Source of the DNA: a virus
DNA length: 64,000 nucleotides
Direction: 5' to 3' (one strand)
IMG/VR virus record: IMGVR_UViG_3300045923_000041
Location: 62,001 to 126,000 of that record
A program made the position numbers and the translations under genes. A model generated the notes under the pieces. That model saw only the letters and a list, made by a program, of their open reading frames with translations. It searched no databases and was not told the origin of the DNA. Within the stretch, counting starts at the first letter, position 1; each line of letters starts with the position of its first letter. Shown here in pieces: positions 39,567 through 58,900 of this stretch.

Positions 39567-40001
39567 TTACACCGGCTCGGCTTCGGGCTCCGGCTTCTTC
39601 GCGTGCCAGTCGATGAACCGACCCGCCTCGATGGCGTCCTCGTGCTCGTCGAACAGCTCCATGTACTTCTCGATGCGGTCCCGCACGCCGTCACGCCAGT
39701 TCTGCGTGCGCTTGACCTTGAGGATCATGTCCCTGGGCATGAGCGGCCGGTTCTTCGAGAAGTCGTACATGATCATCTGGATGATGTCGGCGCCGCTCTT
39801 GCGGGTCTGCGCCCCCTCGGTCGGAACCGTCGTACGGATGCGGATACCGACCTTCGGCGTCAGAAAGAGGTCGTAGGTCACCTCTCCCATCGAACTGCCC
39901 TGCTTGGGGTGGAGCGCGTGGAAGGCGCGCTTGAGGAAGGTATCCCACTCCTCAAGCGAAGCCTCCGTGTACGTCGCCCCTGCCATGCCCTCTCGCTTCA
40001 T
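39567..40001 (-). CDS. Small basic/acidic protein coupled to helicase gene, 144 aa
   Basis: Start ATG 40001 overlaps the helicase stop (ATGA); a longer open frame upstream is a shadow of the helicase. The core reads LEEWDTFLKRAFHALHPKQG, VTYDLFLTPKVGIRIRTTVP, DIIQMIMYDFSKNRPL and VKRTQNWRDGVRDRIEKYME. That pattern (IRIRT, then RTxNWxxxxxxRIE) recalls small uncharacterised proteins of mobile elements, but I can give no firm name. Coupling to the helicase suggests a shared process, such as DNA repair or recombination. Confidence 0.7.
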   Translation of the reverse strand: MKREGMAGATYTEASLEEWDTFLKRAFHALHPKQGSSMGEVTYDLFLTPKVGIRIRTTVPTEGAQTRKSGADIIQMIMYDFSKNRPLMPRDMILKVKRTQNWRDGVRDRIEKYMELFDEHEDAIEAGRFIDWHAKKPEPEAEPV

Positions 40002-43000: not shown

Positions 43001-43348
43001 GAGCTGGAGGGCCTGACGAGGCAGGCCAGCGCGGCTCGTGGCAAACCGGAACGCCTTGGCCAGCATCTTCTTGCGCGTCTCGTTGGGCATGTGCCCGGTC
43101 AGAAACGCATGGTACGCGTCGCCGTGCTGCGAGTTGGCCTGCTGAAGAAGCCTCAGGCCCCGCTTGAGAACGGGGTCCATGGGGTCGTGAAGACCCGTCT
43201 TCTCCTTCAGGAACCGGAAGTACGTGTCATAGGCGAAGACGAAGACCACCCATTCGGCGACTTCGAGATCTCCCACATCCTCGACCGGATCAGAGTGCCC
43301 GGTCGGAACTGGCTCAGCGGCGGTGCGACGGTCGTAGCTCATCACCAT
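39998..43348 (-). CDS. UvrD/Rep-family SF1 helicase with N-terminal extension, 1116 aa
   Basis: Residues about 285-1060 show the SF1A motifs in order: Walker A GAGSGKTTT (304-312), VGTMHG (motif Ic), DEAQD (543-547), GDEVQSVNRFVGA (motif III), TNYR (609-612), STVHSVKGAQW (motif V) and YVAMTRAAK (motif VI). It should unwind DNA in the 3'-5' direction using ATP. Residues 1-280 are not helicase: a compact helical part (LEVAEWVVFVFAYDTYFRFL, VLKRGLRLLQQANSQHGDAY) and an Ala-rich linker. The start at 43348 has an AAGG site. It lies right after the sheath terminator, in the middle of tail genes, an unusual location for DNA metabolism. No nuclease motif is seen. Confidence 0.9.
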   Translation of the reverse strand: MVMSYDRRTAAEPVPTGHSDPVEDVGDLEVAEWVVFVFAYDTYFRFLKEKTGLHDPMDPVLKRGLRLLQQANSQHGDAYHAFLTGHMPNETRKKMLAKAFRFATSRAGLPRQALQLRNVLSLGGTATIRKVFESARARREVNLVMQASTYDDGASAMGQIATVSIRNARVRAWIDLAAKVAGAGDVQNAVDAAATATLDDTHALTLDNAKRVAGPVLSEEAHVATKDHADRLTVIQKDAQEAAKRALDVSGEADAPPTKSEVIGIATAAAAASKAGAVPESLARLDPEQLDAALTDGRVVIMAGAGSGKTTTVTARAAYLVKDRKVNPARIFVVSFNRKAARELRERIGAQVGDDALKQMNVGTMHGMFRKFVVENGTPEEKAALTTWLMTTPSKKAGDQDQRSGRAPSPGAFGGYMARIWKECRDQDPPGRAKNVVQSWMMNDITPAQAKAMAGTEEEKDQAEWYAWLNGFKGIDKTWSPPCKDTSPKAMKQWGEFLAKWRDNGKARLGDFSDMIIMFRDVLKRDPIVRKRVQAMFDHILVDEAQDLNTVQHQIIAMMSEHIGDGSDGKSVWLVGDEVQSVNRFVGARPELLTQFHGKPGWKTKTIRTNYRCLPEIVDHANQLMTNHPRGVPMEAVPDASKPRGQSSIVVQEPPTHAAGALSVVSQIKQDVDAGAPLEDYAVLTRTNMEQNDFETACIIQGIPYARKGGTSFLRSPETVTVMSYFNLAAGQDFERMQKSLIEVLNKPNRFYLKAGESERIVNEVVEKRARQLGTSSKNVNPLDLFDRPGINAFMDAMDPARRWENWKVRATGEELENLGRALRGMRESVEVGKIYDRLTGENKPYTTQDLFGDILNVKGVPERRDAPAPTLRDVLMPVFGGHEEESDSPPDPDDDPSKKPIGNVVFLFQIAQPDPANLDTDPSDPKKFKARIDKLVAASKDLRIDLDQWDAEQQKLPPNERKAPPCVTLSTVHSVKGAQWNNTSVVMARGVFPYEPRPKPGEELLPPEAQERLAKERAEEFKTERQLAYVAMTRAAKNLTIVCPAKSAYGRDAGPSVFVSEAGLKKGQNVPGKNDPTPEPPDATTVLASFFESDTIDPRTPEDFPAVSAYDRRPS

Positions 43349-43442: not shown

Positions 43443-46400
43443 TCAGAGGCTCGCGCGGAGGTTGAACGTCAGCACGAGGTAGAGGAGGGGGAAGATCGGC
43501 TGGTAGTAGGCCGAGAAGTCGAGCGTCGTGGGGTCGTTCGGATCGACCACTGCGCTCACGCCCGTGTACGCGCCGATGATCTGCGCCTCGATGAGGCCCT
43601 TGAGAAGGGCGGTCATCGAAACCGTGACCTCGTTGGTACGCGAGAGCAGGTACTTCGTGCCGACGAACGAGTCCAGGATGACTCGGCTCTGCTGCTGCAC
43701 GAAGTCGCTGATCTGCGTCACCGTGGGGAGACGCGTCAGGATCGTGCTCATGTTCGTCGTCAGAGCAGCGCGGATGCGGATGAGCGGTTGCAGCTCTTCG
43801 AGCACCGTGATGCCTGCGACGGCGGTCTGGTTGGCCGTGACAGGGTCGAGCACCCGGGGGATGCTCGTGAAGCCCTGGAGGCGGCGACGGTCGTAGGGGG
43901 TCGCGACGTCCACCGCAGGCGAGCACCCCGCGCCGGCAACTGCCGCCGCGTAGAAGGTACCGTCCACGATCGAGTCGTAGCTTGCGCCCGTCTCGTCCGT
44001 CAGGGTGATGTCGGAGCTGTCGGGGTAGAACGCGACGATGCGGTTTGAGAGCAAGCTCCGAACGACCGTCTGAGCGTTCGTCGGCGACGTGCCCGAAGCG
44101 AACCCGATGAAGCCCATCCGCTCCGACTGGTTGCGGATGTTGGATTCCACTTCACAGTGCTGCGTCAGGTAGGCGTAGACTGCCGTGCTGGTCGCGAGCG
44201 GGACGAGGATGTCCGGCTTCACGTTGCCAGGCAGCGGGGTCGCGAGGTTCTGGATGGCCGTGATGAAGCTCGCGTCCGACGCCTGGTTCGTGTTCGGCAC
44301 CGCGAGCACCTGGCTGATACCCACGAGCACCGCGCCGTTGAGGATGGCGAGGTACGCCGCGAGGCTGACCCGGTTTTGCGGGGCCACGACGCCGAAGTTG
44401 GCGTTGATGGTCGCTTGCTGCTGGAAGAGCCGGACCGTGAAGTCCTGCTTCATGTACTGGTAGGACACGAAGTAGAAGTCGCCGACTGCCGGAGCGGTGC
44501 CGCTCGGGTTGAAGGTCGTGATCGTGCCCGTGTCGTTCGTTCCGACGCCCACGGTGTTGGAGACGGTGGTCTCCAGACCCGGGATGGCGTAGGTCGGAAT
44601 GGCCGAGGTCACGTTGAACGTCTGCGAGACGAGCAGCGTGAAGCTTCCGGATCCCCCGTAGCTGCCGATGGCGGACGGCAGCACCGTGAAGCGCAGGCCC
44701 GTCTTCGCATCGACGTACGTCTGACCAGGGTAGCCAGTTCCGCTCGAACCCGAGGAGTTCGAAGACGTGACCACGAAGTTGTCGATCGGGTTCTCGCCGT
44801 CATCCCCATCCGTGCCCGGCACGAGACCGATGTTGGTGCTCGTGTTGAACGCGGAGTTCGAGGAGGTGACGAAGCCGATGCTCGAACCTGCCGCGCCGAC
44901 CGTCAACGACTCGAACGTGATGTAGTTCAGGCTGTTGATCTGATCGACGTAGGCAATGGCCGCCGACTTGAAGCCGGAGGTCGCCATGAGTTCGTCCACG
45001 ATCTCGTAGGCGAAGACCTGGACCTGGCTTGCCGAGGCGTTCTGCGTGAAGCCGAGTGGCGTGTTCGCCGTTCCCGTGCCGATGATGATCGACGAGTTGG
45101 CGTTGTTGGTCGGGCTCGTGAGGCGGAGCTTGCCCGAGTTTGCGAGAGTACCAACCGAGGCGACACCAGAGAGACCCGGGGTCGTGTTGATCGCGGTCAC
45201 GATGGCCGACGTAGCGACCGACGTCCCGTTGGGGATGGTGATCGTGTACTGGTTGCCGTTGACCGAGATGATGAGCTGGTCGTTGACCCCCAACGTGATG
45301 TTGTAGGGGCCTGCGATGCTGCTCAGGAGGGTTGCCGGCTTGTTGATCGCGCCGGTCGTGCCCTTACCCGTCGAGAAGGTCTGGAACCCGAGGGTCGAGG
45401 TGACAGTACCCTGGTTGATCTCGACTGCCGAGGGGCTGTCGAAACCGCCAGGCAGCGCGCCCGGAACCGAGTAGCTGTAGATGTAGAACAGTACGTCGCC
45501 CGTGCTCGGCCCGATCTGGGAGAAGTTGGCGAGGTTGTTCGGTGCCGTTCCGGAGAACGCAGCGTTGAGGTCGATGACCTCGTTGATCGAGGCCACGATG
45601 GCTGCCGGGCTGTAGTAGCCCCCAGCCGCCGAGCCGAAGACCGCCGTGGTCGAGGGGTTGGTCGTACCCGTGTAAGCCGTCGTGAGCGTGATGTTGCCGC
45701 TCGTGACCGCCTGGACCACGTAGTACGTGCCCGCCTGCGAAGCGAACGTGATGACGTTGCCCGGGAAGACGAGCCCGACTTGCGAGGTCGAAGTCGTGAC
45801 CGTGGCGCTTGCCGTCACATCGAAGGTACCCGTGAGGGCTCCCGTGGGCAGCGTGACCGAGAGGGCCGTGCCGTCGATGGTCAGGTTGAGGACGTTGTTC
45901 GGAGCGGCCGGGATCTGGATGAACCCAGAGTCGCCACCCGACTGGACCGGCGTGACGTGCCCGCCGACCACGACACCGCGCTCTGCGGCAGCGAGGTTGG
46001 TCGTCACGTTGCTGCCGTTGACTTCCGTGACCCACGTCGCCGAGGACGGCGTGAAGATCGAGTACGGCTCAGCGTTGCGGTTCGTGAAGCTCGCGTTGTT
46101 GGCGGCCGCCGTACCGAACGTCACCGTCACGGTCTCGGGGACCGGCGTTCCGGCGCCCGTCATGAAGGCGTCGGGGATGCTCTGAACGCCACGCGGCCAG
46201 ATGACCTGTTGGCTGAGACCAGACGTCGTGCCGAACCGGATCTGCCAGGCGTTCTGGTTCTGGTTCGAGTCGAGGATCTGGTACGTACCCGCCCCGTACG
46301 CCCCAGGGGTCGTGCAGGTCAGGATGAACGTGTCATCCGTAATCCGGTTGTACCAGAAGGTGGCCCAAGCCTGGAAGTCGGGCGGGACCGGGTTGGCCAG

Positions 46401-47942
46401 CGTGACGAGACGCTGAAGTCCGTCCACCGCCGTCACCGTGACCGGGCCACGGTTGACTGCATCACGGAACGAGCGACCCACGTAGACCTGAACGAGGTCC
46501 GGGCGGTTCGTCACGAGGTCTTGGCGCGCGTTCGTGACCGAGTTGAAGAGCGGCAGGCCAAGGGGCGTGTCGCGGCCGTTGCCGGTCGTCGGGATTTCCG
46601 GCAGCGTGAACTGGTTGGTCGAAACCGTCGCCGGGATCGTCGTGGTGTTCACAACGCGCGTGCACGGGGCCAGCCAGAGCTTGTCGTCCACGAGAAGGGC
46701 GCTGACGAGCGTGTTGTCGAACGGCTGCGCACCAGTCGAGGTCGAACCTGCTGCGATGACGAAGCTCGTCCCCCAGAGGATGACCGAGACCGACTTCGAA
46801 GGGTTGGAGACGATGAAGTCCACACCCTGCACGTAGTCGTTGCGGCCTGGCGAGATGCCGCACGCGACCACGTTGGTCACGAGGGAGTTCGGCAGGTAGT
46901 CGAACGTGTTCTGCCAGGTGTTGGCCGAGTATTGAACCGTGACCGTGGTCCCCGCTGCCGGAGCGTAGGGGAGCGTCACGACACCGTTCGTACCGTCGAG
47001 GCTCGTCGGGATGACCTGGACGTTGTTGACGAGAACGACCACCTTCGAGGTGTCCGTCGTCGTCACGCCGCCGCCCGTGCCGTCCGTGACCGGGATGTTG
47101 AAGACCCGGAACGCCTGGTTGCGGACCGTCTTCGCACCGGCCGAGAAGCCGAGGATGCCGTTGGCCGTGCCCGAACCGATGATGAGGTTCTGGGTCGTCG
47201 TGAACTGCACGTGGTTCAGACCCGCGTTGTCGGTGAAGACCGACGCCACGAGGTTGGTCACCGCGGCTGCGTTGATCGCAGAAGCGAAACCCGCCGCCGT
47301 GTAGCTCTGTGCCCCGAGCGAGATCGTCGAGGTGACGCCGTTGACCGAGACAGCGAACTGGTCGCTCTGGCCACCGACCACCACGTACGGCTCGAACGCC
47401 GGCGCAACGAGGGTTGCGAGGCTGTTGCTCACCTGGGCCGAGACGTCGTCCTTGAAGGACGTGTCGCCACGGTGGAAGTAGTAGGTGACGTTGACCTGGT
47501 CGGTCGGCTGCGTCGGCACCTGGAGGGTGATGAGACCCTGCGAACCGTTGACCGCTGCGAGAGCAACCGGCGTCCCGTTGACCGTAACGGTCACAGCGCT
47601 CGTGTTGTTCGAGACCGTCCCGGTCCCTTGACCGTTGGTGATCGGGAAGTTCGCCACCTTGAAGGTGACAAGGGTTCCCGTCTGGAGGCCGAGGATGAGG
47701 TTCTGGGGGTTCGTCGCGTTGACGACCCACTCCTCAGTGACGTCCTCGTTGACGATCTGTTCGTCGGCCGAGCCGGACGAACCGCGCACGATCTCGACGT
47801 TGTCGTTCTCCAGCACTTGCTGGCCGACCCCGATAATGACAGGGATCCTTAGACCCGCCGTCAGGTTCGAGACGTTGGCTTCAGTCAGCGTCCGCGTGTA
47901 AACGCCGGGCGGGACGTAGGAAATGAACGGGCCGAGTGCCAT
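43443..47942 (-). CDS. Tail sheath protein, very large, 1499 aa
   Basis: The N-terminus (PFISYVPPGVYTRTLTEANV, then GLRIPVIIGVG) and C-terminal third (NVKPDILVPLATSTAVYAYL; ERMGFIGFASGTSPTNAQTV; then DPVTANQTAVAGITVLEELQ, TVSMTALLKGLIEAQIIGAY) are typical contractile sheath. Sheath proteins are usually about 400-700 residues. The extra 800 residues are beta domains inserted between: two pairs with FPITNGQGTG or IPVTDGTGGG, and two copies of an IN-like domain (near nt 47130-47390 and 45040-45310). The insertions should project outward from the tail. The gene has a GAGGAG ribosome site, a 161-base leader and its own terminator, as expected for a highly expressed gene. Confidence 0.9.
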   Translation of the reverse strand: MALGPFISYVPPGVYTRTLTEANVSNLTAGLRIPVIIGVGQQVLENDNVEIVRGSSGSADEQIVNEDVTEEWVVNATNPQNLILGLQTGTLVTFKVANFPITNGQGTGTVSNNTSAVTVTVNGTPVALAAVNGSQGLITLQVPTQPTDQVNVTYYFHRGDTSFKDDVSAQVSNSLATLVAPAFEPYVVVGGQSDQFAVSVNGVTSTISLGAQSYTAAGFASAINAAAVTNLVASVFTDNAGLNHVQFTTTQNLIIGSGTANGILGFSAGAKTVRNQAFRVFNIPVTDGTGGGVTTTDTSKVVVLVNNVQVIPTSLDGTNGVVTLPYAPAAGTTVTVQYSANTWQNTFDYLPNSLVTNVVACGISPGRNDYVQGVDFIVSNPSKSVSVILWGTSFVIAAGSTSTGAQPFDNTLVSALLVDDKLWLAPCTRVVNTTTIPATVSTNQFTLPEIPTTGNGRDTPLGLPLFNSVTNARQDLVTNRPDLVQVYVGRSFRDAVNRGPVTVTAVDGLQRLVTLANPVPPDFQAWATFWYNRITDDTFILTCTTPGAYGAGTYQILDSNQNQNAWQIRFGTTSGLSQQVIWPRGVQSIPDAFMTGAGTPVPETVTVTFGTAAANNASFTNRNAEPYSIFTPSSATWVTEVNGSNVTTNLAAAERGVVVGGHVTPVQSGGDSGFIQIPAAPNNVLNLTIDGTALSVTLPTGALTGTFDVTASATVTTSTSQVGLVFPGNVITFASQAGTYYVVQAVTSGNITLTTAYTGTTNPSTTAVFGSAAGGYYSPAAIVASINEVIDLNAAFSGTAPNNLANFSQIGPSTGDVLFYIYSYSVPGALPGGFDSPSAVEINQGTVTSTLGFQTFSTGKGTTGAINKPATLLSSIAGPYNITLGVNDQLIISVNGNQYTITIPNGTSVATSAIVTAINTTPGLSGVASVGTLANSGKLRLTSPTNNANSSIIIGTGTANTPLGFTQNASASQVQVFAYEIVDELMATSGFKSAAIAYVDQINSLNYITFESLTVGAAGSSIGFVTSSNSAFNTSTNIGLVPGTDGDDGENPIDNFVVTSSNSSGSSGTGYPGQTYVDAKTGLRFTVLPSAIGSYGGSGSFTLLVSQTFNVTSAIPTYAIPGLETTVSNTVGVGTNDTGTITTFNPSGTAPAVGDFYFVSYQYMKQDFTVRLFQQQATINANFGVVAPQNRVSLAAYLAILNGAVLVGISQVLAVPNTNQASDASFITAIQNLATPLPGNVKPDILVPLATSTAVYAYLTQHCEVESNIRNQSERMGFIGFASGTSPTNAQTVVRSLLSNRIVAFYPDSSDITLTDETGASYDSIVDGTFYAAAVAGAGCSPAVDVATPYDRRRLQGFTSIPRVLDPVTANQTAVAGITVLEELQPLIRIRAALTTNMSTILTRLPTVTQISDFVQQQSRVILDSFVGTKYLLSRTNEVTVSMTALLKGLIEAQIIGAYTGVSAVVDPNDPTTLDFSAYYQPIFPLLYLVLTFNLRASL

Positions 47943-48103: not shown

Positions 48104-48107
48104 CTAG
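48092..48107 (-). promoter_or_regulatory. Recurrent CTAGTTCTCTTGTAAC element (copy 4)
   Basis: The TAG of this element is the stop codon of the zinc-ribbon gene. It matches the element at 38215 in 12 of the first 12 bases (CTAGTTCTCTTR, allowing one A/G change). It lies 150 bases upstream of the sheath gene, the likely most expressed tail gene. Confidence 0.35.
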
Positions 48108-48550
48108 CGATGCTCGCCGCCGGGTCCCCTCTGTGCCCTGACCGAGTCGATGGCGACCTTGGCGAGATTGCGCCTCGCTGTACGTCCGCCGTCGCTCATA
48201 GGCTCATAATCAATGTAATCGCGGTTGTTGTGGCGGATCAGGGCATGGGTTCCACCCTGTTTACGGGCTTCGGCCTTGACCTTCTCCCGTTCGTGGATCT
48301 CCGCCCAGCGGACTTCCGCATCCCGCCCGACAAGCTTGTCCGCCGTAGGATAGTCGTTGTCGTGGACGCCCGTGTTCGCCGTAGCGCCCGTCTGGGAGCC
48401 CTTGAAGGCGAAAGCCAGTGAGTCCGCGTCCCACACTCGCGGTGCATCGCGCCCGCACGAGGGGCACTCGTGCGTCAGGTGCTCTGCCATCTTGAGGGTG
48501 CGGAGGAACTCGACGTTGCAGTCCTCGCACGCGAACGTGTACATGGGCAT
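48104..48550 (-). CDS. FmdB-type zinc ribbon protein, 148 aa
   Basis: The first 40 residues form a classic short zinc ribbon (MPMYTFACEDCNVEFLRTLK then CPSCGRDAPRVW): C8, C11, C29 and C32 bind one zinc. This matches FmdB-type proteins, small zinc proteins whose roles are mostly unclear. Residues 50-148 are charged and likely flexible, with VRWAEIHEREKVKAEARKQG. It lies between the terminator-like tail gene and the sheath gene. It may help virion assembly or regulate transcription of late genes; both are inference. Confidence 0.8.
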   Translation of the reverse strand: MPMYTFACEDCNVEFLRTLKMAEHLTHECPSCGRDAPRVWDADSLAFAFKGSQTGATANTGVHDNDYPTADKLVGRDAEVRWAEIHEREKVKAEARKQGGTHALIRHNNRDYIDYEPMSDGGRTARRNLAKVAIDSVRAQRGPGGEHR

Positions 48551-48566
48551 GGGATCCTCATTTGGG

Positions 48567-49760
48567 TCAGCGGATGCGCTCGAAGTCGTTGTTGCGCCCG
48601 TTGAAGATGGGCAAGGAGGGGTAGATCAGGGGGCTTGCGCCGCTGGCGAGGGGGGCGACCTGGTCTGACGGCGTATTGGGGTCGGCCGGCTGACCGGCTG
48701 CGTTTGTCTGCCTGACACGACTGATCGTGAAGGGCATCGGCGCGTGCACTTCCCAGTCCGCGCGCAACTGGAGCGACAACGAGGCCGAGTACATGTAGAT
48801 GTCGCCCGTCTCATCCATGGGCTCTTCGCTCTCACCGCCCATGGAGAGGTCCACGATCTCGATGCCCTCGTTCTCCAGGTACGGCTTCTTGTCCGCCCAG
48901 AGGTACATCATCGCGAGGTCGGAGATCTCTTCCATCTGGATCGGGTCTTGAGCCACGGCTTCCAGTTCGAAGCTGACCTCCCACTTGCCACCGTACGCCC
49001 GCGCCACATCCACACGGTCCGGGTAGACCACGACCGCGCACTTGTCCCCAACGCGGGCACGCTTGCCGAACGCCATGACCACACCGGGCAGTGTCTTGAA
49101 GTCCGAGACGTTCCAAAAGAACGGGATCGGACCAAGGGACGGGACCGAGTAGCGGTACTCCGCCATGACCCTCGCCCCGGGCTTGAAGCGGGTCTTGAAG
49201 ACAATCGCTCCGGTCGAGTAGTTGACAACGTAGTCAGTACCCTCCGTGAGCAGCCAGTTGCCGTTCTCGTAGATCCGGAGCGTGCCCTTCGAAGGAGGGT
49301 TCTGAAGCTGACCCTCAGTCTCGATGCCGGTCTGAAAGAAGAGCAGAGGTTCTTGGGGGACCGTGATGAGGGGGTCAATCGTGTACATGCCAGGCTCGGA
49401 GGCGTTCTTGGGCACGGACAAGATCTCGATGTAGTAGACCCCAGGCAGGATCGGCATCTGCTCTTGGTTGTTCGCGAGGACAGCCTGATCCTCGCGAACC
49501 CACTCGATAGGATGCGCGGGCGTACCAAAGTAGAAGAGACCCACGTGGCTCTCGACCGTCCCCATGAAGTTGTCGCCAGCTAGGGAGATCTTGTTGGCAC
49601 TCGATCCCTTGACGATGATCCCGTACTGCGGACGCTCGTTGAAGCTGTACTTGTTCTGGATGTACGGAACGATCTTGCTGTAGATGGGGTGGCGCGAGAA
49701 CGAGTCTTTCAACTCGTTGATGATGCGCCGCTTGAGAGCCCCAATGATGTAGTAGTACAC
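48567..49760 (-). CDS. Tail terminator/neck-type structural protein with GTG start, 397 aa
   Basis: The start is GTG 49760 with a GAGG site 5 bases before. The N-terminal helix (GALKRRIINELKDSFSRHPI) and the C-terminal part (ISDLAMMYLWADKKPYLENE, GIEIVDLSMGGESEEPMDET, YSASLSLQLRADWEVHAPMP) read like tail-terminator folds, where a helix is followed by strands ending in a downward-facing LxLxxDWE. A middle beta region (GTLRIYENGNWLLTEGTDYV, VNYSTGAIVF) is an added domain. Position between neck-type genes and the sheath supports a role at the top of the tail. The family is inferred from layout rather than a diagnostic motif. Confidence 0.6.
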   Translation of the reverse strand: MYYYIIGALKRRIINELKDSFSRHPIYSKIVPYIQNKYSFNERPQYGIIVKGSSANKISLAGDNFMGTVESHVGLFYFGTPAHPIEWVREDQAVLANNQEQMPILPGVYYIEILSVPKNASEPGMYTIDPLITVPQEPLLFFQTGIETEGQLQNPPSKGTLRIYENGNWLLTEGTDYVVNYSTGAIVFKTRFKPGARVMAEYRYSVPSLGPIPFFWNVSDFKTLPGVVMAFGKRARVGDKCAVVVYPDRVDVARAYGGKWEVSFELEAVAQDPIQMEEISDLAMMYLWADKKPYLENEGIEIVDLSMGGESEEPMDETGDIYMYSASLSLQLRADWEVHAPMPFTISRVRQTNAAGQPADPNTPSDQVAPLASGASPLIYPSLPIFNGRNNDFERIR

Positions 49761-49767
49761 GTGGGCC

Positions 49768-50781
49768 TCAGGCGTGTTCCTCCATCGCCAGGACCAGGAG
49801 GCCCTCTGCGACAGCGGTCATGGGGTCCTTCGCCATCCGGATCTCGCTGATCTCGATGGGGAAGCCCTTCTTCTTGATCTCGGAGAACTCCGACTTGAAG
49901 ACCTCCTCGAAACCGATGGCCTTGCACGTGCCGCCGGAAACGACGAACGGGATCGGCCCTGGCAGCTCAATGCTCGACTGCGCCTTGCGGAACTGGATGG
50001 CGATGTTCTCCAGGCAATGGCGGATGAGCGCGCGGATGTAGAGAGAGATCGCTTCGGCGTCCCGATCATCATCCTTGTGGTTGATGAGGTCCACGCCCTT
50101 CTCCTTGATGGTGCACATGCGCGAGGCCGTAGACCCGGTCGCCTTGGCTGCGTGGGAGTCGATCCAGTCGCCGCCACGTGCAAGAGAAAACTCCAGACCC
50201 TTGATGGTCTGATAGGAGAGCGCCACGTTGCACATGCCCGAACCGAATGACACGGACAGGCCCGAGAATGTCTCGTCGGCGCACTGGCTGTAGATGATCG
50301 CCATCGCCTCGTTCATCGGGTGCGCCGTGAACCCGTGCTCGGTGATGATCTTGCGGAAGATCTCCGTGTGGTAGACGACGTCCTGGTCCGGCATGTCCAC
50401 GGGCGCCGCGGGGACGCTGTAGAAGCAGTGCTCGTCCTTGCAAGACGGCTCTTCGAGTACACTCTTGACGAGGAGACTCAGGATCTGCTGCGCCTTGAGT
50501 TCCCCGGCCGCGATGACGCCGTTGCTCAGGGGACGACGCACTTCCCTCTTGAAGAGGTTGGCCATCGTCAGAGCTGAATCGCCGATGACGACGAGCTGGC
50601 CGTCGCCCATCTCGATGTAATCGACCTTCGAGAGCCGGAGCTGCTTCTTGGCCTCCGATTCGAGGTCGATGAATGCGTCGCGGATGCGGTTGGTCGAGAC
50701 CTTGTCGCCGACCTGGCGTGCCGAGACGATGTTCATGGTCCCAATGTCGAGACCAATGCCCTTCCTCTTGTCCGTGCTCAT
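49768..50781 (-). CDS. Actin/Hsp70-fold ATPase (MreB/ParM/DnaK-like), 337 aa
   Basis: The phosphate-1 loop is GIGLDIGTMNIV (D12-T15), the connect-1 helix is MNEAMAIIYS (156-165), phosphate-2 is SVSFGSGMCNVAL (176-188), GGDWIDSHAA (203-212) fits the MreB/ParM GGDxxD block, and the adenosine loop is VVSGGTCKAIGFEEVF (280-295). Length fits MreB (about 340 aa). Phosphate-2 has S178 where actins, ParM and Hsp70 carry Asp, so ATP hydrolysis may be altered. The start has an AGAGGA site. It is encoded between the Dps-like gene and a neck-type gene, in an operon of virion genes. It could form filaments, act as a chaperone in assembly, or move capsids or DNA; the fold is clear, the role is not. Confidence 0.85.
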   Translation of the reverse strand: MSTDKRKGIGLDIGTMNIVSARQVGDKVSTNRIRDAFIDLESEAKKQLRLSKVDYIEMGDGQLVVIGDSALTMANLFKREVRRPLSNGVIAAGELKAQQILSLLVKSVLEEPSCKDEHCFYSVPAAPVDMPDQDVVYHTEIFRKIITEHGFTAHPMNEAMAIIYSQCADETFSGLSVSFGSGMCNVALSYQTIKGLEFSLARGGDWIDSHAAKATGSTASRMCTIKEKGVDLINHKDDDRDAEAISLYIRALIRHCLENIAIQFRKAQSSIELPGPIPFVVSGGTCKAIGFEEVFKSEFSEIKKKGFPIEISEIRMAKDPMTAVAEGLLVLAMEEHA

Positions 50782-50824: not shown

Positions 50825-51604
50825 TCATTTGATCTTCCAGTCGGAAGCAGTCTTCACGCTCTTCGAAGCAACCCGGCCGCCCGCACGCTGCTTGAGCAGG
50901 TACACGAACGACTCGTTCACGTCAGCGATGCCCTGGAGAAGGTTGTCAATGCCGTGCGAGAGCATCCCCTTCTTTTCCAACAGCTCGTAGCCGATACGCA
51001 GAAGCACGAGGAACCGGAGCACACCCTTGAGCGAGATGAGAACGCACTGCTCGGGCGCGGCCTGCATAGGGGCGGCGTTGTACAGATCCTTGACGATGAG
51101 GAGCTGGTGCGTGCTCTGGATGACCGGGTTCACGAGCACGGGAGTGCCGGCGCCCACTGCGCGCTCTCCAAGGCTGTCGATGAGCGGCTGCGTCTCGTTG
51201 TAGAGGCGTTCGAAGAGCAGGTGATCGGCGTAGAAGGCCGTGCCCTGCGTCTGCCAGTGATGCGTCTGGTGGATGAAGGAGAGCGCGCGAAGGTAGGTGA
51301 GCAGTGCCGCAAGCTCCGCCATCGACTGCTCGCCGTAGTCGAGCAAGAAGTGCGCGAGCACGTTGGCCACGTCCTCGTTCGCGGCTTCTTTGGCCACCAT
51401 CGCGCGGACCTCGGCCAGAGAGTCCTTGTCGGGAATCGACGAGGCACCCTTCGGACGACCCACTGCCTTCGAACACGAGGCATCCGGAAGATAGGGGGGA
51501 CCCATCTTCAGGTGGTCGTATGTCGTGGGGTCGTGCCAGACTGCGTAGATCGAGTCGGCGTGTTCCCCAGAGTACGGGTCGATGACGGCGCGTTTGCCGC
51601 TCAC
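50825..51604 (-). CDS. Dps/ferritin-like protein with GTG start, 259 aa
   Basis: Residues about 108-160 carry the Dps ferroxidase signature: HHWQTQGTAFYADHLLFERL, then IDSLGERAV. H116, H128, E132, D143 and E147 have the same spacing as E. coli Dps H51, H63, D67, D78 and E82. Dps proteins form 12-mers that oxidise and store iron and can bind DNA. This protein is about 100 residues longer, with an N-terminal extension (residues 1-90) and a basic C-terminus (VASKSVKTASDWKIK). The GTG start is chosen because no earlier or nearby ATG has a ribosome site. Encoded beside the actin-like ATPase in a virion operon. It could be virion-borne or act in the infected cell. Confidence 0.8.
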   Translation of the reverse strand: MSGKRAVIDPYSGEHADSIYAVWHDPTTYDHLKMGPPYLPDASCSKAVGRPKGASSIPDKDSLAEVRAMVAKEAANEDVANVLAHFLLDYGEQSMAELAALLTYLRALSFIHQTHHWQTQGTAFYADHLLFERLYNETQPLIDSLGERAVGAGTPVLVNPVIQSTHQLLIVKDLYNAAPMQAAPEQCVLISLKGVLRFLVLLRIGYELLEKKGMLSHGIDNLLQGIADVNESFVYLLKQRAGGRVASKSVKTASDWKIK

Positions 51605-51609
51605 AGCGC

Positions 51610-52125
51610 TCAGCCCTTCTTCTTGTGGATGCCGTGCGTGAATTCGAGGCTGCCCATACCGCCCGCCGAGGTGGACTTGATGCGGTGCTCCAGCTCATAG
51701 GGGCCCATGCCCTCCTCGTTGAGCTTCTTGGCGTCCTTGGGGTCGTAGCCGTGGGCTTCGAGGATGGCCTCAAGCTCCTTGAGTTCCCCAGGATGCGCTG
51801 CGCCTTCCGCCTGCCAGTCGGCCTTCTTGCGCTTGTTTTGTGTCTTGCCGCCAGGCCCAGCACCCCCGGGGAGCGCCGCCTTGGCCTCCTCACGCAGGTC
51901 TTGACCGACACCCGAGGGCGTCTCGCGCTCCGGCTTGGCGGTGAACGTCTTGCCCGTGTACGGAGAGCGGACGGTCAGCTTCTTCTCCTTGAGCCAGAAC
52001 TCGTTGCCCGTGGGATCCACGTACTTCCAAAGCATGCCGCCCTGGCCCTGCTTCTTGTCACCCTTGGCGAGCTTCTCGGTAAGCTCACTGGCCTGCTTCT
52101 TGAGCTGCTCTTGGATGGGGTGCAT
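51610..52125 (-). CDS. Charged hypothetical protein, 171 aa
   Basis: The N-terminus is helical (IQEQLKKQASELTEKLAKGD), followed by a small beta motif (MLWKYVDPTGNEFWLKEKKL, TVRSPYTGKTF) that looks like a compact WW- or SH3-sized unit, a Gly/Pro-rich linker, and a C-terminal helical part (LKELEAILEAHGYDPKDAKK, GPYELEHRIK). Many Lys and Glu residues and no Cys. The ribosome site AGAAGGAAG precedes ATG 52125. It lies between neck-type genes and the Dps-like gene. Function unknown. Confidence 0.7.
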   Translation of the reverse strand: MHPIQEQLKKQASELTEKLAKGDKKQGQGGMLWKYVDPTGNEFWLKEKKLTVRSPYTGKTFTAKPERETPSGVGQDLREEAKAALPGGAGPGGKTQNKRKKADWQAEGAAHPGELKELEAILEAHGYDPKDAKKLNEEGMGPYELEHRIKSTSAGGMGSLEFTHGIHKKKG

Positions 52126-52164: not shown

Positions 52165-52770
52165 TCAGGGCTTGGCCTTGCGCCGAAGCTCCCGAAGCTT
52201 GTCCGAAGCGCCCGAAAGGGTGCTATCCGACTCGGTTTTCTTGGCCTCGATGCGACTCTCGGTGTTTTCGGGCCTGATCGTCGCTGGGATGAACGTCGGA
52301 GTGTTGTCCTCGGGCACCGCCGCACGCACCAGCGGGCCGCCGTTGCCCTGGACCTGGACGATGGTCGTCGTCGAGGGACCCTGCGTGCGAAGAAGCTCCA
52401 AGATCGTGTCCAGCTTGACCGTGGCCCGCTGTTCAGCCGCCAGAGCGTCCTGGCGTTGCTTCTCAAGAGCTTCCCGCAGACGCTTGTTCTCTTCTTCGAG
52501 GGCCTGCTGGCGAGCCGCAAGCGAAGGGTCCGGAGCCGCTGCAACGGGCTCGGTTGAGCCCGGGGGGATGATGACGTTTCGCTGGACGTAGGGACCCGAC
52601 TGGATGAGGCAGATGTACTTCTGCCCGATAGCCCGCCAGAGATCCTTGGACTTGTTCGCTTTGTCCGCCGGGATCGTGACCGTATGGCCGTGGGGAACAC
52701 CCACCCCCAAGTCCGTGATGAAGTGGATCCCGGCGACGAGGCCGAAGACGGTGACATCGCTCACGGCCAT
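52165..52770 (-). CDS. Virion-region protein with coiled coil, 201 aa
   Basis: Residues 1-70 form a small beta domain (VTVFGLVAGIHFITDLGVGV, PHGHTVTIPADKANKS, YICLIQSGPYVQRNVIIPPG) resembling a short capping or decoration fold. Residues about 85-125 are a coiled coil (RQQALEEENKRLREALEKQR). The C-terminal part is charged and likely disordered (RPENTESRIEAKKTESDSTL). The start lies 1 base after the upstream stop. Position suggests a neck or head-tail linker role, but no family is recognised. Confidence 0.7.
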   Translation of the reverse strand: MAVSDVTVFGLVAGIHFITDLGVGVPHGHTVTIPADKANKSKDLWRAIGQKYICLIQSGPYVQRNVIIPPGSTEPVAAAPDPSLAARQQALEEENKRLREALEKQRQDALAAEQRATVKLDTILELLRTQGPSTTTIVQVQGNGGPLVRAAVPEDNTPTFIPATIRPENTESRIEAKKTESDSTLSGASDKLRELRRKAKP

Positions 52771-52771
52771 G

Positions 52772-53281
52772 TCAACGACCCTTCTTGTTGTGGAGGGTCT
52801 GTCGGAGCTGGAGCATCACCTCACGGGTCATGCGCTCCTTGATGAACTTCTTGGCCTCTTGCTTGGCCTTCGTGATGAAGTCCACACGACCGCGGCCGGG
52901 GTGCCACCAGCTCCCGTTCTCCATCGAACGAGGCGTCGCCCAGCGGAAGATCATCTCGCCCGAGTCGAGGACGATGGGGATCGGGACCTTCGCCTTCGTG
53001 AGCCACTTCATCTGCCTCTTCTCCTGTCCGAAGACGAGAGGCTTGAAACCGGGGTGACTGGTCGTGATGACGAGGCTGTTCGGGAAGATCTTGATCCGGA
53101 GCGACTTCGACAGCGACTTGCGGGCGCGGTCCGAAAAGGTGGGAATGTTCTGGAACTTGGCCTTGAGGCGCCGGTTCAGCTCGGCCTTGAGCTTGCGCAG
53201 CACCCCTTCTGGGTTGACGTTGAGGTTCTCGCCGATGAGGGGTTTGGCGTAGACACCGCTGACACGCGTGGGGGCGCCCAT
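52772..53281 (-). CDS. Neck/head-tail joining-type protein, 169 aa
   Basis: Start chosen at ATG 53281, which overlaps the stop of the upstream gene (TGATG). The helical N-terminus (LRKLKAELNRRLKAKFQNIP), then SDRARKSLSKSLRIKIFPNS and the strand pair LVITTSHPGFKPLVFGQE, followed by a final basic helix (KQEAKKFIKERMTREVMLQL), are in the order of HK97 gp10-type neck proteins. The middle contains RWATPRSMENGSWWHPGRGR, rich in aromatic residues. The assignment is by secondary-structure order and position; a specific homologue cannot be named. Confidence 0.6.
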   Translation of the reverse strand: MGAPTRVSGVYAKPLIGENLNVNPEGVLRKLKAELNRRLKAKFQNIPTFSDRARKSLSKSLRIKIFPNSLVITTSHPGFKPLVFGQEKRQMKWLTKAKVPIPIVLDSGEMIFRWATPRSMENGSWWHPGRGRVDFITKAKQEAKKFIKERMTREVMLQLRQTLHNKKGR

Positions 53282-54645
53282 CAGTATTCCGTGTTCTCCC
53301 AAGCGTCGGTCTCTCCACGGAGCTGGCGCTCTGCGGGGATGTTGGGCTTGTTCGTGATCTCCGAGCTGGCTTCCTGGTCAGGGCCCATCGGAGCGAACTC
53401 GACGGCCGGGAACCTGACAGGATTGTCCACGGGCACCTTGTTGCGGATGTCCTTCTCGTCGAAGTGACCCACCGTGAAGTGCTGTTGCAGGATCATGCCT
53501 CGGCTTGTAGGCATCCGAACGGCGCCGATCGAGTATCGTTCACCGTTGATCTTCACGAAGAAGTCACGGTGTGCAAGGAGCGGCGTCGGTCCCGTCCAGG
53601 ACTCGTACGTGTGCTCGACCGTGCGACCGCGATCCTTCTGTGTGATGCGCTTCTCAGAGTCATCCGGCGCGATGATGATGTCGTACGGTCCGTCGTAGCC
53701 GCCGATGATCCCCGTACCGAAGCAGAGGGGATCGTCATTGATTGGTTGCTTGTGGATGTCGTCCTGGAAACAAGGGCACGGCGTGCCCACCTGCTTGCGC
53801 AAGAAGACCTTCACGCGCTCGCCCGCCTGCTCAAGCAGCCAGCGGTTTCGGCGTGCGGCCTCCTTCCAGATGTAGTCGATCTTCTCCATCTCGTAGGAGT
53901 TCGTGGCCGTCGCGTACTCCAGCGGCGTCTCCATGACCTTCTGGGACTGGACAACGCTCGTGGCGTGGTTGACGGGGATGCCCACGGTCGTGACGAGATA
54001 GAAGACCCTCTGAACGAGGTCCGTGCGCACGAGCTGCTTCGTGTACCTGTACGAGCAGGTCACGACGCTCGTTGAAGAAGGGACCACCGTGGGCAAGTAG
54101 TTCTGCGTGCCCGTGTCGGGGTAGCGCCGGACGTCGATCTCGATCTCGCCCGTCTGACCATCGACACGCAGGACCGGAACGATCTGGCCATCGACGATGA
54201 CCTGCACGTCCTCGGCAGAGTTGGCGTAGACCTCCTGCGAGGCTTCCTTGACGATGGGCCGAAGCAGCGTGCGGAAGACGTAACGAGGACCATAGCCGGC
54301 CATGCCCGTGCTCTGCTCGCCGAAGATGACCCACTGTTGAGGGGTGATCTGCTCGTCGGTAACGAGGACGTTGTTGGTCTGATCGCGCCAGTAGCGAGAC
54401 CCGATGGGCAGGCTGTTCACGCGCTCGAACGGTCCGAACTCCGAGTCGAACGCACGGTAGATGTTGACCCCCAAGATGGAGAACCGACCGTTGAGGGTCA
54501 GGATCCCGGGGCTGTCCCACGTGAGGTCGAACACACCAGGCCGGTACCCACTCCTCACGAAGAAGTTGAGGGGTGAGACCGGCCACGGAGCCCGGACGTA
54601 CTCCAGCTCACTGGGGTTCCGGTCGCGATTACTTGCATAAGGCAT
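53281..54645 (-). CDS. Neck/connector structural protein with FN3-like N-terminus, 454 aa
   Basis: Residues about 35-95 look like a fibronectin-III domain (GVFDLTWDSPGILTLNGRFS; GVNIYRAFDSEFGPFERVNS). A beta region follows (EDVQVIVDGQIVPVLRVDGQ, TGEIEIDVRRYPD). Residues 285-320 hold a Cys cluster (CPC at 290-292, C308, FGTGIIGGYDGPYD) that resembles a metal-binding loop of some phage neck proteins. The C-terminus is hydrophilic. The ribosome site GGGGGAG lies 5 bases before ATG 54645. Its place at the start of the neck-type cluster, before the gp10-like gene, supports a head-tail connector role (inference). Confidence 0.7.
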   Translation of the reverse strand: MPYASNRDRNPSELEYVRAPWPVSPLNFFVRSGYRPGVFDLTWDSPGILTLNGRFSILGVNIYRAFDSEFGPFERVNSLPIGSRYWRDQTNNVLVTDEQITPQQWVIFGEQSTGMAGYGPRYVFRTLLRPIVKEASQEVYANSAEDVQVIVDGQIVPVLRVDGQTGEIEIDVRRYPDTGTQNYLPTVVPSSTSVVTCSYRYTKQLVRTDLVQRVFYLVTTVGIPVNHATSVVQSQKVMETPLEYATATNSYEMEKIDYIWKEAARRNRWLLEQAGERVKVFLRKQVGTPCPCFQDDIHKQPINDDPLCFGTGIIGGYDGPYDIIIAPDDSEKRITQKDRGRTVEHTYESWTGPTPLLAHRDFFVKINGERYSIGAVRMPTSRGMILQQHFTVGHFDEKDIRNKVPVDNPVRFPAVEFAPMGPDQEASSEITNKPNIPAERQLRGETDAWENTEY

Positions 54646-55055: not shown

Positions 55056-55973
55056 TCAGAAGCCGACGAACTTGCGAGGAGAGAGCACACCTCGGCCGGC
55101 GTACGGACCGAATGCCGAACGGATGCCGGTACCAAACTTGGGCTGCTGGACGCCCTTGATGTAGTTGACGGTCGCCTTGCCCTTTTCGAGCTGCGTCTGG
55201 AAGTGCTCACTGGCGGCTTGCTGAGCGCCTTCGTACTTGGCGGCCTTCTCCAGGTTGAGCGAGACACCGCCGATGCTGTAGTCGAACTCGTCGGCGATCC
55301 AGTTGATGCGCATGGCCTGGAGCGCGTAGTACGTCGCGCCCGTCAAGAGCATCGTCCTCCACTCGGGATGGAGCTGCACCATCTGAGCGATGTTGGCGAA
55401 GGGAGTCTTGGGGGGCGCCGCGATGATGTCGTCGAGCGCGTTGTACATGTACTCGACCAGCTCGTGGTCCTCCCAGATGAAGCCGAAGACCTTGCTGAAC
55501 TGCGTAACCGTCTCTTCGTGGGCCGGCGGACGGAAGTGGTAGTTGCGGTCGGGGTTGTTGTCGCGGAGCAGGTTGCGCAAGCGGCGCATGAGTTCCCGCT
55601 CGTGGTGGTCCATCTCGCCACCCTCACCCCCACCGGGGCCGAACCCACCCGGTTGGACCCGGTCGATGACCGCGAAGTTCATGACGACCTGTTGCAGCGG
55701 CCCTCCGACGACCTCACGGAAGGTCCAGCGGATGCGGTAGGCACCGATGTTGGCGTCAAGCGGGATGAGCAGGCTCGCGTAGTATTCCCCGACAGACGGG
55801 TTCACGGGCACACGCATGCTCGGACCGACGAGGACTTCGCTGCCGGTCGTGAAGTCGTAGAGGGCGTAGCTGATCTCGGCGGCGTTGACGGGCGTGCCGT
55901 TGACGTTCGTCAGGTAGATGTTGAGGTCGTTCCTGCCGAGGAGCTGACCCTTGTAGAATGCGGTGGTTGCCAT
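55056..55973 (-). CDS. Connector/virion structural protein with Ig-like N-terminus, 305 aa
   Basis: Residues 1-105 form an Ig-like beta domain (NDLNIYLTNVNGTPVNAAEI, SYALYDFTTG; VGEYYASLLIPLDANIGAYR, IRWTFREVVGG) that is also present at the C-terminus of the giant protein just upstream. After a Gly-rich linker (about 110-122), residues 125-305 are helical (HHERELMRRLRNLLRDNNPD; LEKAAKYEGAQQAASEHFQT) and end in QPKFGTGIRS. The start lies 3 bases after the giant gene's stop. The helical half looks like phage connector proteins, so a head-tail or neck position is inferred. Confidence 0.7.
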   Translation of the reverse strand: MATTAFYKGQLLGRNDLNIYLTNVNGTPVNAAEISYALYDFTTGSEVLVGPSMRVPVNPSVGEYYASLLIPLDANIGAYRIRWTFREVVGGPLQQVVMNFAVIDRVQPGGFGPGGGEGGEMDHHERELMRRLRNLLRDNNPDRNYHFRPPAHEETVTQFSKVFGFIWEDHELVEYMYNALDDIIAAPPKTPFANIAQMVQLHPEWRTMLLTGATYYALQAMRINWIADEFDYSIGGVSLNLEKAAKYEGAQQAASEHFQTQLEKGKATVNYIKGVQQPKFGTGIRSAFGPYAGRGVLSPRKFVGF

Positions 55974-55976
55974 GCT

Positions 55977-58900
55977 TCAGTCCCATCCGCGCTTGCGGCC
56001 TCGTGGCGTCTTGTCGTCGGGGAAGTGCGCCGAGACGGCGTCGAGCACCTCGAAGTAGTAGTCCTTCGTGAAGGACTGGCTAAAGAAGGTTTCTTGAACG
56101 GTCCAGCGGACCATCCAGATGCCCGGCTGGCCACCTTCGCCAACGACACCCGTGACGTAGAAGTGTCCCACACCGGGGCCGTGCGCCGGCTCGCGAGCGT
56201 CGGGCCCGACCGGCATGAGGAACATGTCCTTCACCTGGTAGAGGGCGAACGTGACCTTGTAGGGTTCGACCGGGTGACGGCGCTTGTCGTCGTCCTTCTC
56301 GTAGACGTAGAGCGGCAGATGGTGCGGCTCGAAGAACGTGGCCCAGTACGGGAACGCGACGAGCCGCGAGGTCGTGCGAGTCCTGAGGATGGGCGGCAGA
56401 ACCGGGGCTTGGTAGTTGTAGCCCGCGATGATCGCGCTGATCGGCGGTAGCGAGACGTACTGCGCCGGCGGCTGGACGTAGATGAAGGCGTTCTGCGAGG
56501 GAACACCGTAGCCCGCGAAGATCGAATCTTGGGGCGGGAGGTCTGCAACCGGGGGGAGAGCCGCAGGAATGATCTGCGCGTTCTGTGGTGGGAACCCGAA
56601 GCCCGCGAAGAGGTACTGCGGGGGCGGGAGGTCCGGAACGAGCGGGGCCGGGATCGTCGGGATGATCTGCGGTGCTTGCGCCGCCTGGCCGTAGCCGACC
56701 ACCAGCTCCGGGATCACAGTGGGGTACGGAGCGCGAGCGTCGTACGCCTGGAAGAGCTGTGCGACCTGTGCAGGGAAGCCGAACCCAGGGATGACGTACT
56801 GAGGCGGCGGAAGATCCGGTACGAGCGGGGGCGGTACCGCAGGGATGATCTGAGCAACCTGTGCTGCCTGCCCGTAGCCTGCCAGCACGTAGTCCGTAGG
56901 CGGCAAGAGCGCAGCGGGGGCGGGCACGCCGATGTAGATGGCGGGGTTCTGCGCGGCCTGTCCGAAGCCTGCGAAGAGGCTGTCGAGCGGGGGCAGAGGG
57001 ACGTAGTCTGCGGGGGCTGCCTTCGAGATGAAGGGCGCCTGAGCGGCCTGCCCGTAGCCCGCGAACAGGTAGTCCGTGGGCGGGAGCTGCACGTAGGGGG
57101 ACGGCGGGGGCAGCGAGAAGACCACTGCGGACTGCGCGGCCGTTCCAGCACCACCCGTGAGAGCACCACCGGACGTCGCATAGAAGGCCGGCGGCGGATC
57201 ACCCGAGCTGAGGAGCAGCGGCGGCGGGATGAGGTAGTACGCGTGCGGGGCGACGGGCGGAGCGATGATGATCTGCGCGTTCTGCGCGGCCTGACCGTAG
57301 CCCTTGAGGACGTAGTCCTGAGGGGGGAGCTGAGCACTCGGCGGGAGAACGAAAGGTTGGAACAGCTCGGGGCTCTGCGCTGCCTGGCCGTGTCCTGCGA
57401 AGACTGCGTCCTCCGGAGGGAGCTGGGTGAACGGTGGCACGAGTGGCTGCGTGTAGACCACGGCCTTCTGAGGCGGGAACCCGAAGCCAGCGAAGATGGA
57501 GTCCAGCGGAGGCAGTGCAGCGCTCGGCGGGAGAACGAACGGCTGGTAGAGAGCGGCGTTCTGAGCCGGACGTCCAAAGCCCGCGTAGATGCTCTGTGGG
57601 GGCGGCAGCACCTCGGTTGGAGGCAGCACGAACGGCTGGACGAGGGTCGGTGCCTGCGCCGCCTGACCGAAGCCCTTGAGGATGTAGTCGGTCGGAGGCA
57701 GTGCAGCGAACGGCGGGACGAGCGGCTGCGTGTAGATTGCCGGGTTCTGTGGCGGGTAGCCGAAGCCCGCGAAGATCGAGTCCTCGGGCGGCAGGACAGC
57801 CGAGGGCGGCAGCAACGTGGGCTGCACGAAGAACGGCGCTTCGGCGGGCTTGCCGTACCCCGCATAGATGTAGTCCTGCGGCGGGAGTACCTCGGTCGGA
57901 GGCAGGATCGTCGCCTGAACATGGAAGGGTGCTTCCGCGGCCTGGCCGTACCCGGCGAACACGTAGTCCTGCGGAGGCAGATTGGCGCTTGGGGGAAGCA
58001 ACGTGGGCTGCACGAAAAAGGGCACTTCGGCGGCCTGCCCGTAGCCTGCAAAGATCGAATCCAGCGGGGGAAGAGCAGCCGAGGGCGGAAGAACGAACGG
58101 CTGGAACAGCGCTGCGACCTGTGCAGGCTTGCCGTAACCGGCGTAGATGCTCTGCGGCGGAGGCAGGGCAGCCGAGGGCGGTAGGACGAACGGCTGTACG
58201 AAGAACGGTGCCTGAGCAGCCTGACCATACCCAGCGTAGACGTAGTCTTGCGGAGGCAGGTTCGCAGCGGGCGGCGGAACCCCAATGATCTGGACCGCCA
58301 CTTGTGCAGGCTTGCCGAAGCCTGCGAAGATCGAATCCTCGGGCGGCAGGGCCACGTACGGGGGCTGCGGTTGCAAAGTGAAGGGGATGTTCGAGAGGCT
58401 GGGGGTTCCGTAGCCCGCGAAGATCGAGTCCTCCGGGGGCAAGATCGCGCTGGGGGCCGGGAAGAGCGAAGGGTAGAAGACCTCGGCGATCTGCGCAGCT
58501 TGACCGTAGCCGGTGACCACGTAGTCCTGCGGAGGCAGCGTCGCGCTCGGAGCAACGAGCGGTTGGGAGATGGTGAACGCGTTGAGCGAAGGCTTGCCGT
58601 ACCCTGCAACGAGGAAGGTGGGAGGGGGCAGGAGTGCAGACGGCGGCAGGACAAACGGCTGGAAGAGCGCTGCGTTCTGTGCCGGTTGACCGAACCCGGC
58701 GAAGATGCTTTGGGGTGGGGGCAGATCCGGAACCCTGGGCGGCGGGATCGCAGGGAGGATCTGTGCGACTTGAGCCGGCTGACCATACCCAATGAAGATC
58801 GAGTCCTCCGGGGGCAGAACCGCGAAGGGTGGGATCTGCGCCGGAACAACGGACGGGGCTTGTGTTGCCTGACCGAAGCCCTTGAGGATGTAGTCTTGCG

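Follow-up and report, generated by a model that had tools for sequence, protein, structure and literature searches.

Introduction

The phage actins of the papers considered here act on phage DNA. AlpC of the Corynebacterium prophage CGP3 makes filaments to which phage DNA is connected and, in the available text of its description, is the product of an early gene with a role in replication, accompanied by a DNA-binding adaptor, AlpA, and by repeats, alpS (PMC4446434). Similarly, the available part of another report describes ParM-like partition systems on plasmid prophages (PMC8026635). In haloarchaea, two actin families have been described. The Volactin family (PF25216) is named after HVO_2015 of Haloferax volcanii, which forms dynamic filaments in vivo (PMC10869688, main text), and Salactin (PF25229) of Halobacterium salinarum, a separate Pfam family, is dynamically unstable (PMC10746226, main text). 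The word 'phage' is absent from the main text of both papers. In the magnetosome actin MamK, the D161A exchange stabilized the filaments and impaired their dynamics, and the available text of that study adds that in other actins changes of the residues equivalent to D161 or E143 abolished ATPase activity (PMC5059902).

Our search of the open-licence literature brought up neither a description of phage volactins nor one of their position in a neck module, and no mention of PF25216 or of volactin-like proteins. Judged by title, publications on 'volactin' or 'salactin' deal with haloarchaea, actin evolution, cell mechanics or unrelated subjects. The main text of a survey of huge phages mentions tubulin and does not contain the word actin (PMC7162821). 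In the available texts of PMC9067925 and PMC4870245, 'actin' and 'actin-like', respectively, occur only in the reference list, the available part of PMC12619734 makes no mention of actin, and none of the terms looked for occurs in PMC13037316. Here we describe a volactin whose gene is associated with the genes for head-to-tail joining in numerous contigs of uncultured viruses, many of which are pieces of giant phages, whereby an archaeal cytoskeletal family becomes linked with virus assembly.

Family membership and predicted fold

The gene (positions 49768-50781, minus strand, ATG start, 337 aa) lies in a window of 64,000 bases, which is the part from 62001 to 126000 of a virus record of 126,452 bases. 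A 362,937-base IMG/VR contig (L001) encodes an identical protein. Volactin was the sole Pfam family above cut-off for the 337-aa protein, with 251 bits (E=2.5e-74) against a curated cut-off of 35 bits and a match spanning positions 3-321 of the 321-position profile; because of this E value the open reading frame is far from a chance one. The scores across 20 phage records (208-265 bits) were lower than those of the two haloarchaeal members scanned (447 and 466 bits). PF25216 matches were also obtained in three control genomes, including that of Haloferax volcanii, one of the three being over the cut-off. When plasmids were searched with tblastn, matches in Haloarcula and Natrinema were 37% identical to the phage protein along 96-97% of its length (E=5e-69 and 1e-66), with 97% coverage for the Haloarcula volactins. 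These two members served as archaeal reference sequences and stand in for the Haloferax protein. Their megaplasmid genes (L090 4992-6020 and L091 4992-6026) carry a hypothetical-protein annotation only.

Other families of the superfamily were far less well matched by the 337-aa protein. MreB_Mbl (PF06723) reached 15 bits (E=0.012), under its cut-off of 27, and the MamK model NF040964 gave 21.9 bits as compared to an NCBIfam cut-off of 400. In the Pfam scan, Salactin PF25229, the ParM/StbA family and Hsp70 PF00012 gave no match at E up to 1, and a substrate-binding domain was lacking; filing of the protein as ParM/Alp or Hsp70 was thereby ruled out. A genome search with PF06406 gave no match, its controls being without match as well. 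No PHROGs family matched the protein, and a single-sequence phmmer search of the PDB gave no match, a profile being needed. The first-pass annotation had placed the protein in the actin/Hsp70 superfamily, apart from the ParM/Alp partition actins, and had left its nearest kin unnamed. Both placements held, and the closest homologues turned out to be archaeal volactins, not a phage chaperone or partition family. Assignment of the gene to a phage branch of the Volactin family is well supported.

The actin fold was retained upon structure prediction. An AlphaFold2 model built from an input alignment of 59 phage sequences had a pLDDT of 91.1 and a pTM of 0.88, and its Foldseek matches were MreB, MamK, archaeal actin and actin. 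The best structural alignment was obtained with the MamK double-helical filament (Z 28.1, 3.0 Å, 296 residues, 21% identity), followed by the BeeR filament (Z 26.6) and MreB (Z 25.0); MamK was also the best solved structure by the family sequence profile (E=6.3e-5). Among viral predicted structures, the best matches were the Hsp70 homologues of plant viruses, which are virion-tail assembly factors.

Nucleotide-binding site and serine 178

All blocks of the actin/Hsp70 nucleotide site are readable in the protein, as had been noticed from the sequence, namely phosphate-1 (GLDIGTMN, with D12), connect-1 (NEAMAI, with E158), phosphate-2 (SFGSGMCN, with S178), a GGD-x-ID block with D205 and D208, and an adenosine block, SGGT, with G283 and G284. 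In phage relatives (176 distinct sequence strings, with fragments included and gapped rows set aside), D12 (163/163), E158 (173/173) and S178 (174/174) were invariant and N185 was kept in 173 of 174. The serine at position 178, where the superfamily has aspartate, is thus genuine. As a peculiarity of the phage protein it did not stand, however, since position 178 is Ser and position 185 is Asn in all 43 volactins of the tree alignment, the archaeal sequences among them, whereas the five MreBs have Asp and Glu at these positions (5/5). An earlier alignment of volactins for Ser178 omitted L119-L121 and rows shorter than 280 aa. The uncharged phosphate-2 loop S-x-G-x-G-x-x-N, which the phage and archaeal proteins share, is therefore a mark of the family, although as such it is an observation made here and not a published definition.

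When the family profile was aligned with MamK, Glu158 fell on E143, so that this Glu is kept, and Ser178 on D161. The pairing of E158 with E143 is obtained by profile alignment only; with MAFFT, the catalytic Glu of MreB lies four columns off E158. Ser178 as a sign of a dead ATPase, or as a phage novelty, was ruled out, as all aligned volactins have Ser and the main text of PMC10869688 describes the Haloferax filaments as dynamic. In view of these dynamics in cells, ATP hydrolysis by volactins may be slow or may use a slightly altered arrangement, provided that the loop is the same in the Haloferax protein. For the phage protein, too, slow nucleotide turnover or a rearranged active site would be expected, as a serine takes the place of MamK D161. 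How an actin ATPase works without an acidic residue in its phosphate-2 loop is thus a testable question.

Gene neighbourhood in the window

For comparison of gene neighbourhoods, a set of 83 phage loci was used, nearly all of which had been fetched by volactin itself; L081, L084-L092 and L094-L121 (duplicates, cellular or unplaced loci) were left out of this count and L093 was kept. All genes of the module in the window are on the minus strand and, along transcription, encode a virion structural protein, a tail-completion/Neck1-like protein, two proteins without useful family match, a Dps-like protein, volactin, a terminator-like protein, an FmdB-type zinc ribbon and the sheath. Neck and terminator genes carry putative names here, which stem from weak or partial matches.

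The virion structural (neck) protein (53281-54645, 454 aa) is named after phrog_1004, which was matched by 12 of 26 family members (best E=9.1e-5); the copy in the window matched only phrog_2806, a family of unknown function. Likewise, the candidate tail-completion/Neck1-like protein (52772-53302, 176 aa; homologue in 63/83 loci) takes its name from phrog_5, matched by 3 of 21 family members (best E=3.7e-10), with the window's own copy remaining without match. Next come the two module proteins of 201 aa (52165-52770) and 171 aa (51610-52125), with homologues in 56/83 and 33/83 loci, respectively. The protein of 259 aa encoded at 50825-51604 has a Dps/ferritin-like domain after a long N-terminal extension (phrog_3636, E=2.5e-9; phrog_858, E=6.6e-7); Pfam Ferritin stayed under its cut-off, and a homologue was present in 51/83 loci. 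The volactin gene starts 43 nt after this gene and stops 7 nt before that of the putative tail terminator (48567-49760, 397 aa).

A model of the 397-aa protein (pLDDT 79.8) had its best match in the neck of phage 812 (8qkh_G, E=8e-8), followed by a second 812 neck chain (1.9e-7). Other neck or gateway proteins were matched as well, with TM-scores of only 0.20-0.41, and phrog_123, a tail terminator family, was matched by 1 of 33 members of the terminator-like family. Between the terminator and sheath genes, an FmdB-type zinc-ribbon protein of 148 aa is encoded (48104-48550; phrog_1076, E=4.7e-5), with a homologue in 73/83 loci. The tail sheath protein (43443-47942, 1499 aa) has a long N-terminal part. 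Full-length scans gave no sheath match, and only the C-terminal 369 aa are recognisable (phrog_2839, E=1e-22), but the C-terminal domains of all 18 sheath family members matched phrog_2839. Relatives of the sheath gene reach about 1750-1790 aa. The neck and tail context and the tight packing that the first-pass annotation had pointed out were borne out by the 7 nt to the terminator-like gene, by the sheath gene downstream and by the conservation of this order across loci.

Upstream of the neck gene, a module protein of 305 aa (55056-55973) gave a weak connector match (phrog_17327, E=0.23) and has a homologue in 46/83 loci. It is preceded by the gene for a 2614-aa protein (55977-63821, minus strand), residues about 1300-2450 of which contain successive repeats of about 31 residues with LPP...GYG at their core (34 matches to a single expression; period 93 bases); no Pfam match was obtained for this protein at E up to 0.1. 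On the other side of the sheath gene, 39998-43348 was considered as a tail gene and ruled out, as it encodes a helicase (phrog_1967).

Conservation of the arrangement among phage loci

A terminator homologue was found in 76 of the 83 loci, in every case (76/76) downstream of volactin and on the same strand. Three of the seven remaining loci end just after volactin (L015, L039, L078), and four do not (L061, L062, L065, L066). The neck homologue, present in 70 of the 83, was always on the volactin strand (70/70). When loci were fetched by the neighbours, which avoids the bias of a volactin query, volactin was present in 80/80 of the best loci obtained with the neck protein and in 78/80 of those obtained with the terminator, both misses being cut close to the terminator. 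With divergent neck or terminator members as queries, 70/80 and 71/80 of the loci had volactin; the four neighbour-fetched sets overlap and some of the misses are short contigs. Among distinct neck+terminator pairs from loci fetched by neighbours, volactin lay between the two genes in 132 of 140. If volactin-fetched loci are added, 142 of 150 pairs hold it, a count that includes three loci not from IMG/VR (L082, L083, L093). In all, 492 candidate IMG/VR stretches encode a relative, without reduction to distinct contigs. The working alignments of loci were hand-picked subsets.

The modules of the eight pairs that lack volactin possess neck, tail-completion, terminator and zinc-ribbon genes at their usual places, and in five of them (L370, L386, L421, L427, L497) a sheath gene was seen. 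Volactin is therefore not an obligatory part of the neck. Twelve contigs, nine holding the eight empty pairs and three that lack a terminator near their neck gene, were searched with PF25216. No match was found in 11 of them, one of which has 536 kb, although contigs may be fragments. In G224 (266 kb), the twelfth contig, the module is split; its neck gene lies far away, and volactin (L515, 139893-140852) is still located between the tail-completion and terminator genes. On a quick tree of 111 modules, thinned of near-identical rows and rooted at the midpoint, the absence of volactin requires at least seven changes, five of them forced by supported branches. All absences fall in one of the two main arms and are nested among modules with volactin, which suggests that the gene is ancestral and was lost repeatedly; with the root placed at the midpoint, gain instead of loss could account for the pattern as well.

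Phylogeny and co-inheritance

A tree was calculated for 43 hand-listed volactin rows, with near-identical ones thinned, L030, L045 and L048 omitted and L091 and L093 included. MreB, the outgroup (five rows), was the sole other actin family in this tree. The volactins split from MreB at 100/100, with the phage protein on the side of the archaeal volactins. Among the volactins, a single phage clade was recovered (99/99, 29 rows). This clade includes L084, a metagenome-assembled genome (MAG) contig without module shown, which was counted as phage because it fell among phage rows. Eight archaeal volactin rows form a separate clade (98/83), and the sister group of the phage clade (86/86) consists of the two copies from a MAG titled Neomarinimicrobiota. 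The placement of the long-branched L087, L089 and L092 is unsure.

Each of 20 chosen records (205-619 kb), all preselected as having volactin, had one copy of the gene (20/20). In a comparison of 99 rows, from which rows shorter than 290 aa were left out, volactin distances correlated with those of the neck protein and with those of the terminator (Mantel r=0.81 in both cases, p 0.001), and the neck and terminator distances with each other (0.87). Volactin was the most conserved of the three, with a mean distance of 0.43 as compared to 0.51 and 0.55. The dN/dS ratio was about 0.06 when compared to L002 (93% identical) and 0.08-0.25 when compared to L004, L005, L007 and L013, the latter values being rough as dS is large. 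Volactin is thus under purifying selection.

Putative role in virion assembly

An actin fold, a conserved ATP pocket, a single copy and co-inheritance with the head-to-tail joining genes emerge directly from these computations. Gene order, archaeal filaments and empty modules lead us to prefer, with middling confidence, the view that volactin is a late cytoskeletal ATPase, probably filament-forming, which helps virion assembly. The assembly role or filament system that the first-pass annotation had put forward is accordingly the reading favoured here. The gene order suggests that volactin would be transcribed late, together with the neck, tail-terminator and sheath genes, and points to a tie to head-tail joining. 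The protein would bind ATP and may polymerise into ATP-driven filaments like its archaeal namesake, a member of the family from outside the present alignment. Filaments or short oligomers could then position tails and heads, or bring them together, during virion assembly. As some lineages do without volactin, it would be a factor that serves assembly rather than an indispensable building block of the particle. Adjacency to neck and tail genes does not, however, prove joint function. An accessory gene that is non-essential and unrelated to assembly would also fit the loss in several lineages. Also counted against a role in assembly is the volactin of the 595-kb phage LR756511 (L092 9995-11014; 28% identity), which is long-branched and lies outside the phage clade and outside any recognisable neck module.

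Clearly less probable, but the best of the alternatives, is an assembly ATPase or chaperone that would act on the neck or the tail terminator in monomeric form or within a small complex, in the manner of Hsp70 and without filaments. Its fixed place beside the tail terminator, the conserved actin/Hsp70 nucleotide core and the plant-virus homologues that lead the viral structure matches would agree with such a function. However, the 337 aa leave the protein without the substrate-binding domain and without a PF00012 match, the closest family and the closest folds are those of actins known to form filaments, and eight modules manage without it.

That volactin is a structural component of the neck or tail of the virion, or decorates it, is unlikely. 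Volactin lies inside the neck and tail gene block and is inherited together with those genes, and the structural packing from which the first-pass annotation had derived a possible virion-associated role stood. The virion-integral role itself is weakened because 8 of the 140 distinct neighbour-fetched neck+terminator pairs lack volactin, and an obligatory brick is disfavoured by the same eight modules, which are nested among modules that have the gene. Moreover, the invariant nucleotide pocket would suggest a working ATPase. Least probable, and very doubtful, is a ParM/AlpC-type filament for DNA partition or genome positioning, with its gene among the late ones by chance. AlpC and the ParM-like prophage systems provide precedents for such a filament, and the absence of tubulin PF00091 from all 20 large records (where a diverged PhuZ could be missed) would agree with it. 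However, AlpC is an early gene with adaptor and repeats (PMC4446434, available text), whereas the recognisable neighbours of volactin are structural, Dps-like or zinc-ribbon genes, and no ParM-type Pfam family matched at E up to 1.

With regard to the late cytoskeletal factor, the available text on a nucleus-forming jumbo phage describes particles organised in cells as bouquets and states that the mechanism is not understood (PMC9067925). A volactin filament might be useful in such bouquet-like organisation, but this is a guess, as the bouquet phage is linked to the present one by the process alone. How giant phages organise assembly in the cell has in any case become a testable question. More broadly, and tentatively, we propose that a large lineage of giant phages may run virion morphogenesis with a volactin cytoskeleton of its own, in which filaments encoded in the structural operon would dock or sort tails and DNA-filled heads at organised joining sites, and which some lineages would have lost; archaeal and phage volactins would then be two arms of one family, the phage arm being maybe a source or a recipient of the archaeal cytoskeleton.

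Volactins in other lineages

Near the LR756511 volactin are genes that matched the Pfam families PKD, MptE-like and glycosyltransferase weakly. LR745208 and LR756511 presumably come from the huge-phage survey. Of 194 genomes in the GTDB phylum to which a MAG titled Thermoplasmata archaeon (G003) belongs, 18 were over the PF25216 cut-off; sixteen have strong copies (287-413 bits), G003 itself has a phage-like copy and one copy is marginal (35.6 bits). Two copies from this phylum are located more than 1 megabase into their contig, and the family is therefore also cellular outside the haloarchaea. On a contig binned as Fermentibacteria, volactin (L087 7989-8984) is found beside terminase-like and PhoH genes, and because of this company L087 is probably another phage lineage with volactin. 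A MAG titled Planctomycetota (G007) has two divergent volactins (L094, L101), one of them in an 828-kb contig, which are possible bacterial cellular members. Among the 20 large phage records, an SLT domain was found in five and ribosomal protein S21 in one.
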